A DNA stretch of 64,000 nt from Micromonospora costi (GTDB taxonomy: Bacteria; Actinomycetota; Actinomycetes; Mycobacteriales; Micromonosporaceae). The notes under the pieces are model-generated. The model was given only the letters and a program-made list of their open reading frames with translations. It was not told where the DNA came from and did no database searches. The position numbers were made by a program, and so were the translations under genes. Below, in pieces: positions 4,298 through 31,396 of the stretch (position 1 is the stretch's first letter; each line of letters begins with the position of its first letter). The stretch is from positions 558,001 through 622,000 of the forward strand of contig NZ_RBAN01000003.1 in the NCBI RefSeq assembly GCF_003626655.1, in the 5' to 3' direction.

Positions 4298-7285
4298 ATG
4301 GCCTTTCGGACCTGGGGCAGACTGCTGCTCACGGCGCTCGGGGTGAGCGTGCTGGCCGGGGCCGGGCAGCTGGGCATCGCGTACGGCTTCGGCATCGTCC
4401 GGCTCACCGGCGCCTTCACGGGCGCGACCGTCAACCAGTGGCCCGCCCAGCTCGTCTGGGTCGGCTGGTTCTCGGCGAACGCCGCCGTCGTCGGTGCGGT
4501 GCTCACCGAGCGCCTCGCCCGTCGCGACGGGCCGCCGGCCACCACGGGCCGGCAACTGGCCGTCGGTGCGGTGGCCGCGCTGGGCGCGTCCACCGTGGCG
4601 CCGTTGTGCATGCAGCCCGCCCGCGCCGCGGAGTTGGTGTCCGTCGACCCGGTCTTCGCGGTCGGCATCTGTGCCGTGCTCGGCGCCATCGTGGGGGCCG
4701 GGGCGGCCATCGCCGTCCTGCTCAACCCGCCGCTGGGCTGGAACGTGGCGGCGGTCGCCGGCGCCGTCTGGCTGCTCGCCCTGGTCTCGGCGCTGCCGTC
4801 GCTCGGCGCGAGCGGGCCTCTGCGCAGCGTCCGGCTCGGTGTGCTGGAGCCGACCTGGCTGGACGCCGACGCCGCCCAGCGCTTGTCCCTGCTGCTGTTG
4901 CCGATCGTGGCGCTGCTCGCCGGGGCGGCGAGCGCCGGCCTGGCCCGCCGGCGCGGCCACGTGCCGCTGGTCAGCGGCGCGACCGGGGTGGCCGGCCCGG
5001 TGCTCGCGGCGTTCGCGTACCTGACCGCCGGCCCCGGTGACGCGGTCGACCGGTACCAGACCACGCCCTACTACGGCGCGCTGATCGCGGTCGCCGCCGG
5101 CGCCCTCGGCGCGGCGGCCGCCGCCCTGCTCCGCTGGCCGGCCGGCACCCGCAGCGCCGGCGCCCACGCCATCGAACCGAGCGACATCCTGCGCCCGCTG
5201 CCCGCCGGTCCCGCCCTGCCCACCTCCGCCGCCACGACCGCCGCCGCCACGAGCGCCGACCGTCCCGACGAGGATCGGGCGGAACCGGCCGGCGCCGACG
5301 TGGCGGCCCGATCCGGCGGTACGGTGCCCGCGACCGGCGCCGTCCGCAGCGGCGGTAGCGCGCGCGGCGGTGTCGGCGGTAGCGGCGGTGTCGGCCGTTC
5401 CGGTGCCCCGGCCCACTGGGATTGGCCCGAGGCCGGCACCCACACGGCGCACCGGTCGAGCGCCGATCCCGCTCGCCGACCCCTCACCGACGACCTGCCC
5501 ACGGCGCCGCTGACCGTCACGTCGACGCTGGGCCGGCCGGTCGAACGCACCGCCCCCGCCACGGAGCCGGCTTCCGCCACGGAGCCCGCCCCCGCCACGG
5601 AGCCCGTCTCCGCCGCCGAGCGGCTAGGCCCGGGCGCCGATCGCGGCCCGATCGCCGAACAGCCCGGCCAGGGTGTGGAGACCGCCTCCGGGACGGCCCG
5701 GGTTGCCGGCGCGCACGCGTCGGCGCCGGCCCTCAGTGGCGAGCTGGCCGAGACCCGTCGCGCGGATCCCGACTCCGCCGGTCGTGGGGCCGATGGTTCC
5801 CCATCGAGCGTGATGCCTCAGAGTCATATTCATGCCTCTGAGGCATCAAGCCCAGAACAGGTAGCTGCTCCCCAGCCAGTCGACCAGGGCTCGACGCTCG
5901 ACCCGCGCCGGCTGACCGACAACGGTGAGCCCGATCCTCAGCCGGCGACGGACGCCGGGACGACACCCCGGCCCCGCCGTCGTTCCACCCGCCCGGCCGG
6001 CTCGGCCGCAGCGTCCACGCCATCGCCTGCGTCGGGCACGCCGACGTCCACAGGGCCGGCAAGCGGGACAGGGCCGGCAGAGTCGGCAGGCGACCCGAAG
6101 ACAGGCAACCCGAAGGCAGCGGACGCGCCAGAGCAGGCCGGTGCGCCGGAGGAGGGCGCGGAGTCGGCGCCGGCACCGAAGGCCCGGCGTGCGCGCAAGG
6201 CCCGTTCCACGTCGAAGCCCGCCGCCCTGTCCGACAGCACGGCAGACGCCACGAGCGGCGGCACGGCACACGCCGCGAGCACCGCAGCGGAGGCCGCCGA
6301 CCGTGGCACGGCGCCGACCACGGGCAGCGCGAAACGCGCTTCCGCCGCATCCGCCCAACCGATCGGAGCCGACCCAGCGGCGCACGGCCCAGCCGACGGG
6401 GCAGCCACCGCGGGCAGAGCAACCACCGGCGGCAGGGTGCGCACGGCCGGCAGGGCGCGCACGGCCGCTGGGGAACCGCAGGTCGACGGCGAGCCGACTG
6501 GGACGCCGGCCCCGGCTGCCGACGACGTGACGAGCCGCCGCGACACCCGGCCGACGGCGGACCGGCAGCCCAGCGCGCGCCGAGAGACCGAACCGCAGCG
6601 CCCGGCCGGTGCGCCGACCCGCGGCCTCCCCGCCACAGCGGCCGACGCACCGACCCACGGCCTGGCCGCACAGCCCGCGCCGCAGGACCCCGCCACCGCG
6701 ACCGCGCCGACCCACGGCCTTCCGGCACAGCCTGCCCTGCCGGATCACGCCAGGCCCGCGTGGCCGGTGCCGTCCCGGCCCGCGCCGGTCGGCGACGAGG
6801 TGGCCCGGGAGGCGACGGGCGTACCGGCGTCCGGGGAGGAACCGCCGCCGCGCGCGCGGCACCGGGCACCGCTGCCCGACCTGAACCGGGCGGCGAGCTG
6901 GGAGGCCCTGGCCACCGCGCGGCGCGCCGGGCCGCAGTCGACCGGCCCGCGCCACACGGCGCAGGACGCACCGTTGGAGGCGACCGCATCGGCCGGCCCG
7001 GCGACCGAGGCGGCTGCGGCGGACACGTCGGCCGAGGGCTCCGCCGAGGACCAGAGCGGCGCGGACCAGTCGGCGGGCCGGGGTCGCGGGCGGCTCGGGC
7101 TGTTCCGGCGCAACCGCTCCCGCGAGGCCACCGGCAGCGACGCCGAGTCGGAACCGCTCGCCGCGCAGGACGAGGAGTACGTCGACTGGGTGACCGGCCT
7201 GGGCCGGTCGGTGGCGGACAACGAACCCGAGCAGGAGAACGGCCGGCGCTCGCTGCGTTCGAGCGGTCGCCATCACCGGGACTGA
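4298..7285 (+). CDS. Large membrane protein with long disordered Ala/Pro/Thr tail, unknown function
   Basis: Not recognised. The first about 285 residues hold roughly eight hydrophobic segments (e.g. [72 protein letters not shown]). The remaining about 710 residues are low-complexity, rich in Ala, Pro, Thr, Arg and Glu, with short repeats such as [10 protein letters not shown] near residue 430 and THGLPA/THGLAA near residues 770-815. The C-terminus becomes acidic then basic ([13 protein letters not shown] ... SSGRHHRD) and may be a conserved tail motif. The start is uncertain: ATG 4298 (used), GTG 4289 and GTG 4271 are in frame and none has a strong ribosome site. The gene contains an AT-rich double palindrome at 5811-5848 that stands out from its GC-rich surroundings. 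Confidence 0.7.
5811..5848. repeat. Intragenic 13-bp inverted repeat made of two tandem 15-bp palindromes
   Basis: TGATGCCTCAGAG (5811-5823) is perfectly inverted at 5836-5848 around a 12-base spacer. Read differently, it is two head-to-tail copies of the palindrome ATGCCTCWGAGKCAT: 5813-5827 (one mismatch) and 5832-5846 (perfect), 19 bases apart centre to centre. The element is AT-rich compared with its surroundings and is translated in frame as [12 protein letters not shown]. It could be a regulator-binding site, an RNA hairpin or an inserted short repeat; the sequence alone does not decide. Confidence 0.85.
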
Positions 7286-24377: not shown

Positions 24378-25511
24378 ATGGTGTATCGGTACGAGTCCGA
24401 TGAGGACGCTTTCGTGGAGTACCCGGAGCCCGGGTCCGACCTGTCCGCGCTCGGCGCCGGTCCGCCACCGCCGGCCGGGCCCTCCCCGTCGCGCTTCCCC
24501 ACCCCGTCGCTCCCCCGTACGACGCGGATGGCCCTGCCCGCGCCCGAGCCCGAGCCGGTGCCGGCCGAGACCCCGGTGCGGTCCGCGGCGTACGCGGTGA
24601 CGCACCCCGTCGAGCCGCCGCCGCCCCCGGTCCACGCGCCGGCACCACCCTCGGTCCACGCACCGGCGCCGCCCTCGGTCCACGCCCCGCCGCCGGTCGA
24701 GGCCGAGCCGGCGCCCGTCCCCCGTGCCCGTGGTGGAGGCCGGCTGTGGCAGGTGCTGGTCGGCGGAGCGGCCGTCCTCGTCCTGCTCGCGCTCTGCGGG
24801 CTCGGCGCCGCCGCGCTGCTCGCCGATCGCACCCCCGATCCGCAGGTCACACCGAGCTTCCAGGCCGGGGCCAACCCCTCCACCGAACCGGAGCCGGAGG
24901 ACCTCGACTCCCGGGACACCGACCAGACACCGCTCAGCGCCAAGGAGCTGTTCGCCGGCAAGGAACTGGCGCTGACCGACGGCCAGCCGGCGTACCAGGT
25001 GCTCAAGACGCAGTCGAGCGCCAGCTGCGCGGTCGCGGCCACCGACGAGATCGCCGACCTGCTGGTCCGGCTCGGCTGCAACCAGGTGGTCCGGGCCACG
25101 CTGCGCGCGCCCGACGGCACCCACCTCGTCACCACCGGCCTGTTCAACCTCACCGACAAGGCGAGCGCGGAGCGCGCCCGCGACCGCATCCGCCAGCTGC
25201 TCGACGAGCGGCAGGGACGGTTCCGGGGGATGGAGGCCGACGCGAACACCGAGGCGATCGCGAACGCCCCGGCCCGGGTGGGCTGGCAGGTCCGCGGGCA
25301 CTACCTGGCGTACGCGGTGGTCGTCCGCACCGACGGCGACGCGATCAAGTCCGGCGACCCGGCGGTACGCGAGATCCTCTTCGACATGATCGAGCTGCAC
25401 CTGAACCGCGGCGTGCTCGAACGGCGCGCCGCCGGAGGCACCGCGAGCCAGCCCACGGCCGGCCCGTCGGCGACAACGGGAACCCAGGACTCCGAACTCC
25501 CCGGAGACTGA
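24378..25511 (+). CDS. One-pass membrane protein with Pro-rich cytoplasmic part, unknown function
   Basis: Not recognised; 377 residues. An acidic start (YRYESDEDAFVEYPEP) is followed by a Pro-rich stretch with three VHAPAPPS-like repeats (about residues 82-105), one membrane helix (LWQVLVGGAAVLVLLALCGLGAAALL, about 121-148) and an outside domain of about 225 residues. That domain has two Cys (SSASCAVAA and VRLGCNQVV) that could form a disulfide, and reads like a folded alpha/beta domain ending in a Thr/Pro tail. No ribosome site precedes the ATG at 24378, consistent with the nearly leaderless promoter. A large palindromic element starts 6 bases after the stop. Confidence 0.75.
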   Translation: MVYRYESDEDAFVEYPEPGSDLSALGAGPPPPAGPSPSRFPTPSLPRTTRMALPAPEPEPVPAETPVRSAAYAVTHPVEPPPPPVHAPAPPSVHAPAPPSVHAPPPVEAEPAPVPRARGGGRLWQVLVGGAAVLVLLALCGLGAAALLADRTPDPQVTPSFQAGANPSTEPEPEDLDSRDTDQTPLSAKELFAGKELALTDGQPAYQVLKTQSSASCAVAATDEIADLLVRLGCNQVVRATLRAPDGTHLVTTGLFNLTDKASAERARDRIRQLLDERQGRFRGMEADANTEAIANAPARVGWQVRGHYLAYAVVVRTDGDAIKSGDPAVREILFDMIELHLNRGVLERRAAGGTASQPTAGPSATTGTQDSELPGD

Positions 25512-25517
25512 CCCAAA

Positions 25518-25599
25518 CCCCCGCGATCTTGCACTTTGTGCCCTTGGTTTGCGGCGTTTCACGGCTTTTGCCGGGGCAGGAAGTGCAAGATCGCGGGGG
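25518..25599. repeat. Large palindromic element (19-bp perfect arms), likely bidirectional terminator
   Basis: Left arm 25518-25536 (CCCCCGCGATCTTGCACTT) is perfectly inverted at 25581-25599, around a 44-base loop that can form a further TGCCC/GGGCA stem. It fills the whole gap between two converging genes, touching both ends. It looks like a REP-type dispersed element used as a terminator; a copy number cannot be determined from this window, where only this copy was seen. Confidence 0.85.
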
Positions 25600-25602
25600 T
25601 GG

Positions 25603-26433
25603 TCAGGCTTCCGTGGGGAGTCGCAGGCGGCGCGTCTGGTCGGCGCGGCGGGCGTACTCCGCCGGGTCGTCCGGGTAGCCGACCGCCACCAGCGTCAACC
25701 CGTGCGCGGGCGCCACGCTCACGTCGCCGGACCGCTCCCGGCGACTCAGCAGACCGGCCGGCCAGTCGACCGGACGCCGGCCCTCCCCCGCCGCCAGCAT
25801 GGCGCCGACGAGGCTGCGCACCATCGCCTGGCAGAACGCGTCGGCCTGGACGGTGGCGACCAGCACGCCGTCCGGGTCACGCCGCCAGTCCAGCCGGGTC
25901 ACCTCGCGCAGGGTGGTGGCGTTCTCCTTGCGCCGGCAGTACGCCGCGAAGTCGTGCTCCCCCACCAGGCCGGCGGCGGCCGCGTTGAGCGCGTCCACAT
26001 CGAGCGGTCGCGGCCAGGCCAGGATCTCGTGCCGGCGCAGCGGCTCGGCGCCGTACGGGGCGTCGGTCACCCGGTACTCGTAGCGGCGGAACGTCGCCGA
26101 GAAGCGGGCGTCGAACTCCGGCGGCACCTCACTGATCGCCCGCACGCGCACGTCACCGGGGAGCAGCCGGGCCAGCCGGCGCAGCAGGGCGCCCTCCCGG
26201 TCGCGCCACACCGCCAGCGGCAGGTCGACGTGGCACACCTGCCCGGTGGCGTGCACACCGGCGTCCGTACGACCGGCGACGGTCAGCCCCGTCGCGGTCC
26301 CGGCGCCCAGCAGGAGGTCGAGCGCCTCGACGAGCACGCCGGCGACCGTACGGCGGTCCGGCTGGACGGCCCAGCCGGAGAAGGCGGTCCCGTCGTACGA
26401 CACGTCCAGCCGCAGCCGGGTCAGCTCGTCCAC
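25603..26433 (-). CDS. truA: tRNA pseudouridine(38-40) synthase TruA
   Basis: Converts uridines 38-40 of the tRNA anticodon arm to pseudouridine; 276 residues. The catalytic Asp57 lies in VAGRTDAGVHATGQV; RRYEYRV and the C-terminal FCQAMVRSLVGAML are further family hallmarks. The GTG at 26433 has GGGAGG 5 bases upstream and gives the normal family length; the open frame runs on to 26757 but that is rplQ antiphase sequence. It follows the alpha operon after a strong terminator, so expression may depend on read-through or on its own weak promoter. Confidence 0.95.
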   Translation of the reverse strand: MDELTRLRLDVSYDGTAFSGWAVQPDRRTVAGVLVEALDLLLGAGTATGLTVAGRTDAGVHATGQVCHVDLPLAVWRDREGALLRRLARLLPGDVRVRAISEVPPEFDARFSATFRRYEYRVTDAPYGAEPLRRHEILAWPRPLDVDALNAAAAGLVGEHDFAAYCRRKENATTLREVTRLDWRRDPDGVLVATVQADAFCQAMVRSLVGAMLAAGEGRRPVDWPAGLLSRRERSGDVSVAPAHGLTLVAVGYPDDPAEYARRADQTRRLRLPTEA

Positions 26434-31231: not shown

Positions 31232-31304
31232 GACCGCAAGGATGCCACCATCCCACCAGTCCCAGACCCCCCACAGCCCCGCCCCCGCCGCCCCCCTGGC
31301 GTGG

Positions 31305-31362
31305 GTGATCAAGAGCTTTGCGTCATCCCGGGGCCGGATCCTGACGCGAACCTCTTGATCAC
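31305..31362. repeat. Large palindromic element (21-bp arms, two mismatches)
   Basis: Arms 31305-31325 and 31342-31362 (outer part GTGATCAAGAG / CTCTTGATCAC) are inverted around a 16-base loop, with two mismatches. A second GC dyad, GAGCCCGGGGC/GCCCCGGG, follows at about 31369-31390. It lies in the non-coding gap 31232-31429 after map and before the DUF1707 gene. Probably a REP-like dispersed element, different from the one at 25518. Confidence 0.8.
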
Positions 31363-31396
31363 CGGAGCGAGCCCGGGGCGGAGCCCCGGGGAGGGA

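Follow-up and report, generated by a model that had tools for sequence, protein, structure and literature searches.

A dispersed family of gene-end hairpins in Micromonospora costi and its putative partnership with an AbiEi-like/DUF559 nuclease

The palindrome at the truA junction

Through in silico analysis of a 64,000-nucleotide stretch of the Micromonospora costi genome (the window), a long palindrome has been located between two convergent genes: truA and a gene for a protein of 377 residues with one apparent membrane helix (judged by eye), for which no Pfam match was found (Table 1). The first-pass annotation had described perfect 19-base arms around a 44-base loop, spanning the entire gap between the genes. 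The perfect pairing and the loop are borne out, the arms measure 20 bp instead of 19, and the palindrome fills 84 of the 91 bp from stop codon to stop codon. A small bubble separates the inner GCCC/GGGC stem from the arms, as in the family to which this copy is assigned below.

A chance origin was rejected, as the base composition of the window predicts 2.8e-4 perfect repeats with an arm of at least 19 and a loop of 10-60, and one is observed. Folded as RNA, the 91-bp gap reaches -64.4 kcal/mol (z = -9.2), and none of 200 dinucleotide shuffles was equally stable. A scan of positions 25300-25800 for terminator-like sites (loops of 3-8 only) returned 0, and an intrinsic, U-tract terminator was rejected because the palindrome has no T-run behind it. 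A known Rfam family was likewise dismissed; the best score at window positions 25000-26100 was 28.2 bits, where the gathering score is 196.

Table 1. Features at the truA junction and related features (window positions unless a locus is named)
Feature	Position	Strand	Remark
Upstream convergent gene, 377 aa	24378-25511	+	ends 5 bp before palindrome
Left arm of family-A hairpin, ACCCCCGCGATCTTGCACTT	25517-25536	+	read from sequence
Element as modelled, alignment row 1 for covariance model	25518-25599	+	own-genome match 1.7e-18
Core GCGATCTTGCACTT inside left arm of family-A hairpin	25523-25536	+	
Loop of 44 bases, asymmetric family consensus	25537-25580	+	
Inner stem of loop, GCCC / GGGC	25540-25543 / 25574-25577		
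Right arm, exact reverse complement of left arm	25581-25600	-	read from sequence
truA, tRNA pseudouridine synthase	25603-26433	-	PF01416; stop codon starts 2 bp past palindrome
Family-D element, imperfect arms GGTGATCAAGAGSTTTGCGTCA / GGTGATCAAGAGCTTTGCGTCA	31304-31363	no strand	same window
Bracketed nuclease, example	L040		Micromonospora maritima DSM 45782

Copies and architecture of family A

The first-pass annotation had suspected a repeat family; dozens of cores at gene ends were to speak for it and a genome-wide count of one or two against it. The core GCGATCTTGCACTT occurs exactly 95 times in the 7.18-Mb genome (reversed control, 0), and complete pairs of the form GATCTTGCA-N45-65-TGCAAGATC occur 85 times (control, 0), so that the dozens are there and the low count does not hold. 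Alignment of 82 copies taken with their flanks yields a single asymmetric element that measures 66-69 bp (about 68) between the outer GATC ends. This element, here called family A, consists of (i) an outer arm GCGATCTTGCA[C/G]TTT; (ii) a two-base bubble; (iii) an inner GCCCC/GGGGC stem; and (iv) a loop of about 27 bases inside the inner stem, with a weaker consensus of its own. Conservation of the arms among these copies is partly built in, the copies having been picked first by exact arms. A covariance model recovers the known family-A sites and a few more among the 150 scored candidates listed; on 464 kb of the same genome (20 stretches at round coordinates and the window) it finds the window copy and sister-family members only.

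At L197:2964-3282 three A elements form a tandem array with a period of about 126 bp, which is a local duplication of element and spacer, and at L219:3133-3473 an A element is split by about 270 bp holding palindromic motifs, including GATCGAC...GTCGAGTCGATC and a GCGTGATGCCTCAGAG hairpin. The copies are unevenly spread along the genome: contig C2 at 1-559 kb and contig C4 beyond 433 kb have neither core nor listed match, and C-type arms are present in these stretches.

Hairpins with related arms form three sister families, B, C and D, in the same genome. The arms of family B are GTCGATCATGCASTTGTGGTG and those of family C are GTTGATCATGAAGTTATTGCC, the latter with nearly always the same spacing. 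The motifs of A and B differ by a single mismatch, and counts of B by motif, which overlap those of A, were set aside. The family-D motif, for which 8 copies were counted and of which the window holds one element, also lies beside C-clade DUF559 nuclease genes in other species; among the five PF04480 matches of the M. costi genome no nuclease bracketed by D hairpins was seen. A further hairpin, GCGTGATGCCTCAGAGTCATATTCATGCC..., unrelated to the GATC families, was seen at least twice, at 5808-5851 of the window and at about 3350-3395 of L219.

Placement behind genes

Gene positions were taken from a home-made gene caller. By this measure 78 of the 82 family-A copies are intergenic (35 in convergent, 39 in tandem and 4 in divergent gaps) and 4 lie inside predicted genes, compared with 30 convergent, 105 tandem and 48 divergent among control gaps of at least 90 bp (convergent versus divergent, Fisher p 6e-8). 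Of the 39 tandem copies, 37 lie closer to the upstream stop than to the downstream start (p 2.8e-9), the medians being 22 and 104 bp, respectively; over all copies the median is about 20 bp past the stop codon. The enrichment at gene 3' ends that had been anticipated is thereby confirmed. The orientation of the tandem copies is random, with 20 lying with and 19 against transcription.

The ten bases adjoining the element are 71% C on the left and 69% G on the right (plus strand), unlike those of control gaps. Such C-rich and G-rich tracts are seen, for example, at 25505-25525 and 25595-25610 of the window and are absent at the empty sites looked at. Site-specific pairing of the two flanks was rejected: over the first five positions, own flanks form 3.70 Watson-Crick pairs and swapped flanks 3.68 (p 0.44), and three further position ranges gave p 0.64, 0.11 and 0.22. 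The folding energy is slightly lower with own flanks (-57.8) than with swapped ones (-56.2 to -57.1).

Spread and history among relatives

The outer arms of family A are present in 45 of 200 Micromonosporaceae genomes and 9 of 44 genera, which agrees with the dispersal in this family of bacteria that the first-pass annotation had supposed. The covariance model matched 52 of the 61 genomes examined from the genus, M. costi among them, and 1 of 40 genomes representing other families of the order; the model counts per genome, in which 45 stands for at least 45, may include sister families.

At the truA junction the element is seen in the M. costi genome only and is absent from the 28 other loci that were judged (170 bases, by eye; a twenty-ninth, L265, ends 37 bases past the stop and was left out). 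The closest relative, G027, with a TruA 92% identical, carries a different hairpin there (by eye). A second site (L162, site 3) was compared in 18 relatives. Twelve have short empty gaps, 2 have longer gaps without a recognised element, 3 have hairpins of another subtype (one decayed) and 1 has another palindromic insertion, and an ordinary hairpin precedes the site in all 18 (by eye).

The comparison with G027, in which the elements of both species were found by their arms, is better evidence for arm conservation than the alignment of own copies. Forty G027 elements were taken from among the high-scoring model matches listed. Twenty-seven of them have an M. costi A element in the syntenic interval (less than 200 bp in 19, longer in 8), 12 are without counterpart among the sequences compared, and for 1 the matching M. 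costi site is clean and empty. Over the 27 pairs, identity amounts to 97% for the 12-base arms (626/648), 85% for the inner stems, 67% for the loops and 65% for the flanks; the matched outer sequence is 80-94% identical. The counterpart is the single best match among own copies in only 6 of the 27 cases, because the loops have diverged far. Orientation agrees in 24 of the 27 pairs; the remaining three (L163/L314, L201/L316 and, less clearly, L191/L321) are apparently inverted in place between collinear flanks, which suggests recombination or cruciform processing at the arms.

Within the M. costi genome, some copies at unlinked sites have inner parts 95% identical in unrelated flanks. No target-site duplication is visible at L239/L311 or at site 3, where diverged C-rich and G-rich flanks blur the edges. 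Presence or absence in relatives, near-identical unlinked copies and constant arms around diverged loops together point to a REP-like repeat, so the family-A copies appear to spread and then to persist with their arms held constant.

Nuclease genes bracketed by hairpins

Inspection of element-rich loci led to L183, where two genes with DUF559/MTES_1575 nuclease domains lie among four hairpins. L183 is thus a selected case, all other loci having been picked by protein similarity alone. The 281-aa nuclease gene at L183:3108-3950 has an A hairpin on either side, and its paralogue in the same locus has a B hairpin on either side. A third paralogue (L395) is flanked by C hairpins on both sides, a fourth (L383, with an internal stop) by another palindrome on both sides, and hairpins were not found at the fifth (L398). 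Neither this bracketing of nuclease genes nor the sister families had been foreseen in the first-pass annotation.

Among the best 30 loci of the genus (own included), GATC hairpins are located on both sides of the nuclease gene in 22 and on at least one side in 28, and the two loci without any such hairpin both end at contig ends; of 30 truA control loci, none has them on both sides and 2 have one on one side. Under a strict definition of bracketing, in which both hairpins share an arm 10-mer, the figures are 22/30 for A-orthologue loci, 0/30 for truA and 1/307 for overlapping random windows of the M. costi genome. The same definition gave 10/20 (one an A-clade gene) and 9/20 in the next homologue tiers, and 9/23 for all PF04480 matches of five genomes from five genera. 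Eight of the 30 A-orthologue loci fail it, three of these (L361, L369 and L372) being cut by contig ends, as do at least half of the loci in the more distant sets. An arginase and/or a G5-domain protein adjoins the nuclease in 21 of the 30 loci, and from these shared neighbours the A nuclease gene seems to be mainly inherited in place.

A search with the nuclease protein returned 7 records of a plasmid collection, the loci of 6 being examined, and no match in phage sequences. In an uncontrolled reading, all 3 examined DUF559 loci of Tsukamurella tyrosinosolvens (4 records matched) are bracketed, two by matching palindromes and one by inverted ends; one Arthrobacter locus shares flank sequences and another has a hairpin on one side only (also uncontrolled), and a shared flanking pair was not found at a Nonomuraea locus. 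Two palindromes from Tsukamurella are repeated elsewhere in the species, one at 20 places on 8 records and the other at 12 places on 9 records, figures that overstate the distinct copies because a palindrome can match both strands. In other genera, DUF559 genes were also seen with quite different hairpin arms on both sides, namely TGTAGAGAAWGAGTGG, GATCTAGGGCAAAT and GATCTAGGG, at L388 (694-757 and 1739-1789), L392 and L393.

The nuclease protein

The A protein, of about 281 residues, combines an AbiEi-like N-terminal region with a C-terminal DUF559/MTES_1575 endonuclease domain. For the N-terminal region, models of AbiEi antitoxins gave a match (PADLOC E 1.8e-12). The C-terminal domain scores 27.3 bits for DUF559 (PF04480; cut-off 20.6) and 31.6 bits for MTES_1575 (PF18741), below the cut-off of 38.2, and all 29 aligned proteins match both models at E<=0.01. 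Residues D217, E228, D230, G231 and H234 are invariant across the 29 proteins. In annotations DUF559 is still a domain of unknown function; we take the C-terminal domain to resemble Vsr, of the PD-(D/E)XK sort. A weak sequence match to 3hrl, 'Endonuclease-Like Protein', was obtained (E 0.0055), and a structure prediction from a two-sequence alignment was unusable (mean pLDDT 34.5), so that the presumed nuclease fold rests on modest sequence-profile scores. The dN/dS of the nuclease, 0.13-0.15, is similar to that of truA, 0.155 (G000-G151).

Arm sequence and copy number follow the nuclease

Of 95 loci collected for the co-variation analysis, 86 were kept after duplicates and loci without a match had been dropped. 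Clades A, B and C do not include 5 proteins classed as intermediate and 16 classed as distant. The nearest hairpin starts with GATCTTG in 28/28 A-clade loci having one (30 loci), with GATCATG[CG] in 14/17 for clade B (20 loci) and with GATCA[AT]G[AG] in 14/15 for clade C (15 loci). At the A-clade locus L364 the closest hairpin is a different one, GATCTTGGT. A Mantel test of nuclease against arm sequence in the 72 loci with a hairpin gave r=0.668, a value reached in 0 of 5000 permutations. Within clades the correlations are weak (0.07, 0.21 and 0.37), and the signal of co-variation thus lies between clades.

At least 28 model matches were counted in 16 of 16 genomes with an A-clade nuclease, compared with 16 of 45 without one (Mann-Whitney p 1.5e-6), and the copy number by the exact pattern gave p 0.0018 (28 genomes). 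As for the 16 exceptions, some of their matches are sister families and some may be orphans or elements served by another paralogue. The arm motif classes and the threshold of 28 were set after the data had been seen, the Mantel and rank tests being independent of them, and the p values for co-variation and copy number ignore the relatedness of the genomes and are hence inflated.

Proposed partnership and alternative explanations

With a probability of roughly two in three, the hairpins and their cognate AbiEi-like/DUF559 nuclease form a partnership like that of RAYT and REPIN, built on an unrelated endonuclease. The palindrome at truA would then be one copy of a dispersed, non-autonomous REPIN-like hairpin, family A. 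The proposed cognate enzyme is the AbiEi-like/DUF559 protein whose gene has a copy of its own hairpin on either side; kept vertically, it would recognise the palindrome by its arms and copy or move it into gene-end spacers, where insertions are tolerated. Families B and C would be served by their own nuclease paralogues. We infer that the nuclease binds and cuts the family-A arms and that copies arise thereby, and that these copies are largely passengers, sometimes perhaps serving as 3' hairpins.

Host use of the hairpins could by itself account for part of the data, if long hairpins were recruited as terminators or mRNA 3'-end structures and kept to end or protect transcripts from both sides of a junction. 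The position some 20 bp past the stop codon whatever the orientation, the very stable fold, the arms far better conserved than the loops between species, and the element holding a junction where G027 has another hairpin (by eye) are all in keeping with this. Against it, the T-tract is absent, and at site 3 an ordinary hairpin, present in all 18 relatives, precedes the element, which most of them lack (by eye). Pairing alone, moreover, needs neither the conserved word GATCTTGCA nor the near-fixed span, and the bracketing of nuclease genes and the co-variation of arm and nuclease are left unexplained. This explanation is accordingly considered unlikely. A terminator-like use at gene ends such as that of truA is possible as a secondary role, but host use of 3' hairpins leaves the arm code unexplained. 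A regulon or toxin-antitoxin system is quite improbable. In such a system the AbiEi-like protein would be a DNA-binding regulator with operator palindromes on both sides of its own gene and at further binding sites throughout the genome, the DUF559 domain being of secondary importance. AbiEi antitoxins bind operator repeats, which, together with the N-terminal AbiEi match and arms constrained in place, fits a regulator; the sites, however, lie behind genes, in divergent promoter regions in only 4 of 78 cases, and none of the neighbours scanned at the A locus (an arginase, a G5-domain protein and a second DUF559 protein) is toxin-like. The invariance of catalytic-looking residues also argues against a purely regulatory protein, and near-identical unlinked copies call for a process of spreading.

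If the elements were MITEs of an ordinary DDE insertion sequence, the arms would be its terminal inverted repeats, and both the inverted ends and the presence or absence between species would follow. The one clean empty site (L239 versus L311), however, shows no visible target-site duplication, the nuclease unit usually ends in full hairpins instead of single inverted repeats, and no transposase was found among 18 proteins scanned beside elements, which makes this origin very improbable. Movement of a classical REP/REPIN by a Y1 RAYT is scarcely credible here, even though many extragenic hairpins, species-specific arms and an enzyme gene between its own repeats match what the relevant passages of two studies describe (PMC2817692, PMC3116915). 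No match to the Y1 family PF01797 was obtained in the M. costi genome, which refutes a Y1 RAYT there unless it lies in an assembly gap. Among 20 relatives searched, PF01797 is absent in all 14 that bear the element and present in 2, G009 and G108, both of which are without A pairs. The GTAG head is absent from the arm GCGATCTTGCASTTT in the 82 copies read, and an internal hairpin was not seen by eye. Hence the REP-like family suggested in the first-pass annotation stands as regards dispersed gene-end palindromes and is not supported as regards REP in the strict sense.

Returning to the partnership of hairpin and nuclease, a broader claim can be made, which we hold at little better than even odds. 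Actinomycetes would carry an unnamed class of mobile element, composed of a gene whose product, an AbiEi-type DNA-binding protein fused to a Vsr-like endonuclease, recognises the hairpins or inverted ends around the gene, and of a gene-less swarm of hairpins behind host genes. Several paralogous nuclease/hairpin pairs, each with its own arm code, would share one genome. The RAYT-REPIN lifestyle would thereby have arisen a second time, independently, through a PD-(D/E)XK-type nuclease and without HUH or DDE transposase. To our knowledge, REP-type repeats depend on one enzyme class; here the signatures of REPs (bracketing, co-variation and dosage) attach to the unrelated nuclease family DUF559. 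If the proposal is true, many 'DUF559 domain-containing proteins' gain a role, the gene-end palindromes of Micromonosporaceae are explained, and a clean, testable match of arm sequence to enzyme is provided.

Comparison with known systems

In a literature search of open-licence PMC papers, neither a published link of DUF559 proteins with palindromic repeats nor an earlier description of the hairpin family/nuclease pairing was found. Several known systems share single features with family A. In Neisseria and Haemophilus, inverted pairs of uptake sequences serve as terminators, and, as in family A, an inverted pair of a short conserved word stands behind genes; in contrast to these, the family-A word is seldom found outside pairs, whose spacing is near-fixed, and a bracketed nuclease is present. 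MITEs and other non-autonomous insertion sequences are likewise short, non-coding and dispersed, with inverted ends and presence or absence in relatives. In family A, by comparison, no target-site duplication was seen between edges blurred by diverged flanks, and the gene-bearing unit usually has a whole hairpin at either end. With Vsr-like PD-(D/E)XK endonucleases (DUF559, REase_MTES_1575) the A protein shares the C-terminal domain and its invariant residues. Its N-terminal region is recognised by models of AbiEi antitoxins, from which it differs by its fusion to a nuclease and by having no AbiEii-like partner among the scanned neighbours of the A locus.

The closest likeness is to REPs, whose defining partner is the Y1 tyrosine transposase RAYT. 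As set out in the passages concerned of Nunvar et al. 2010 (PMC2817692), the argument for RAYT and REP relies on flanking, co-variation and copy number; these authors report RAYT homologues to be absent from major lineages beyond the gammaproteobacterial one, and Bertels & Rainey 2011 (PMC3116915) add Nostoc. REP/REPIN repeats as these passages present them are, like family A, extragenic palindromes that number from tens to hundreds and are species-specific in sequence, with an enzyme gene between two of its own repeats, co-variation of enzyme and repeat, and enzyme presence that tracks copy number. The differences relate to the enzyme, the arms and the host: an AbiEi-like protein with a DUF559 (Vsr-type) nuclease domain instead of a Y1 HUH transposase, arms that are not individually palindromic and have no GTAG head, and a host belonging to Actinomycetota. 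As flanking, co-variation and copy number all recur with an unrelated enzyme, the nuclease would stand in the place of RAYT.
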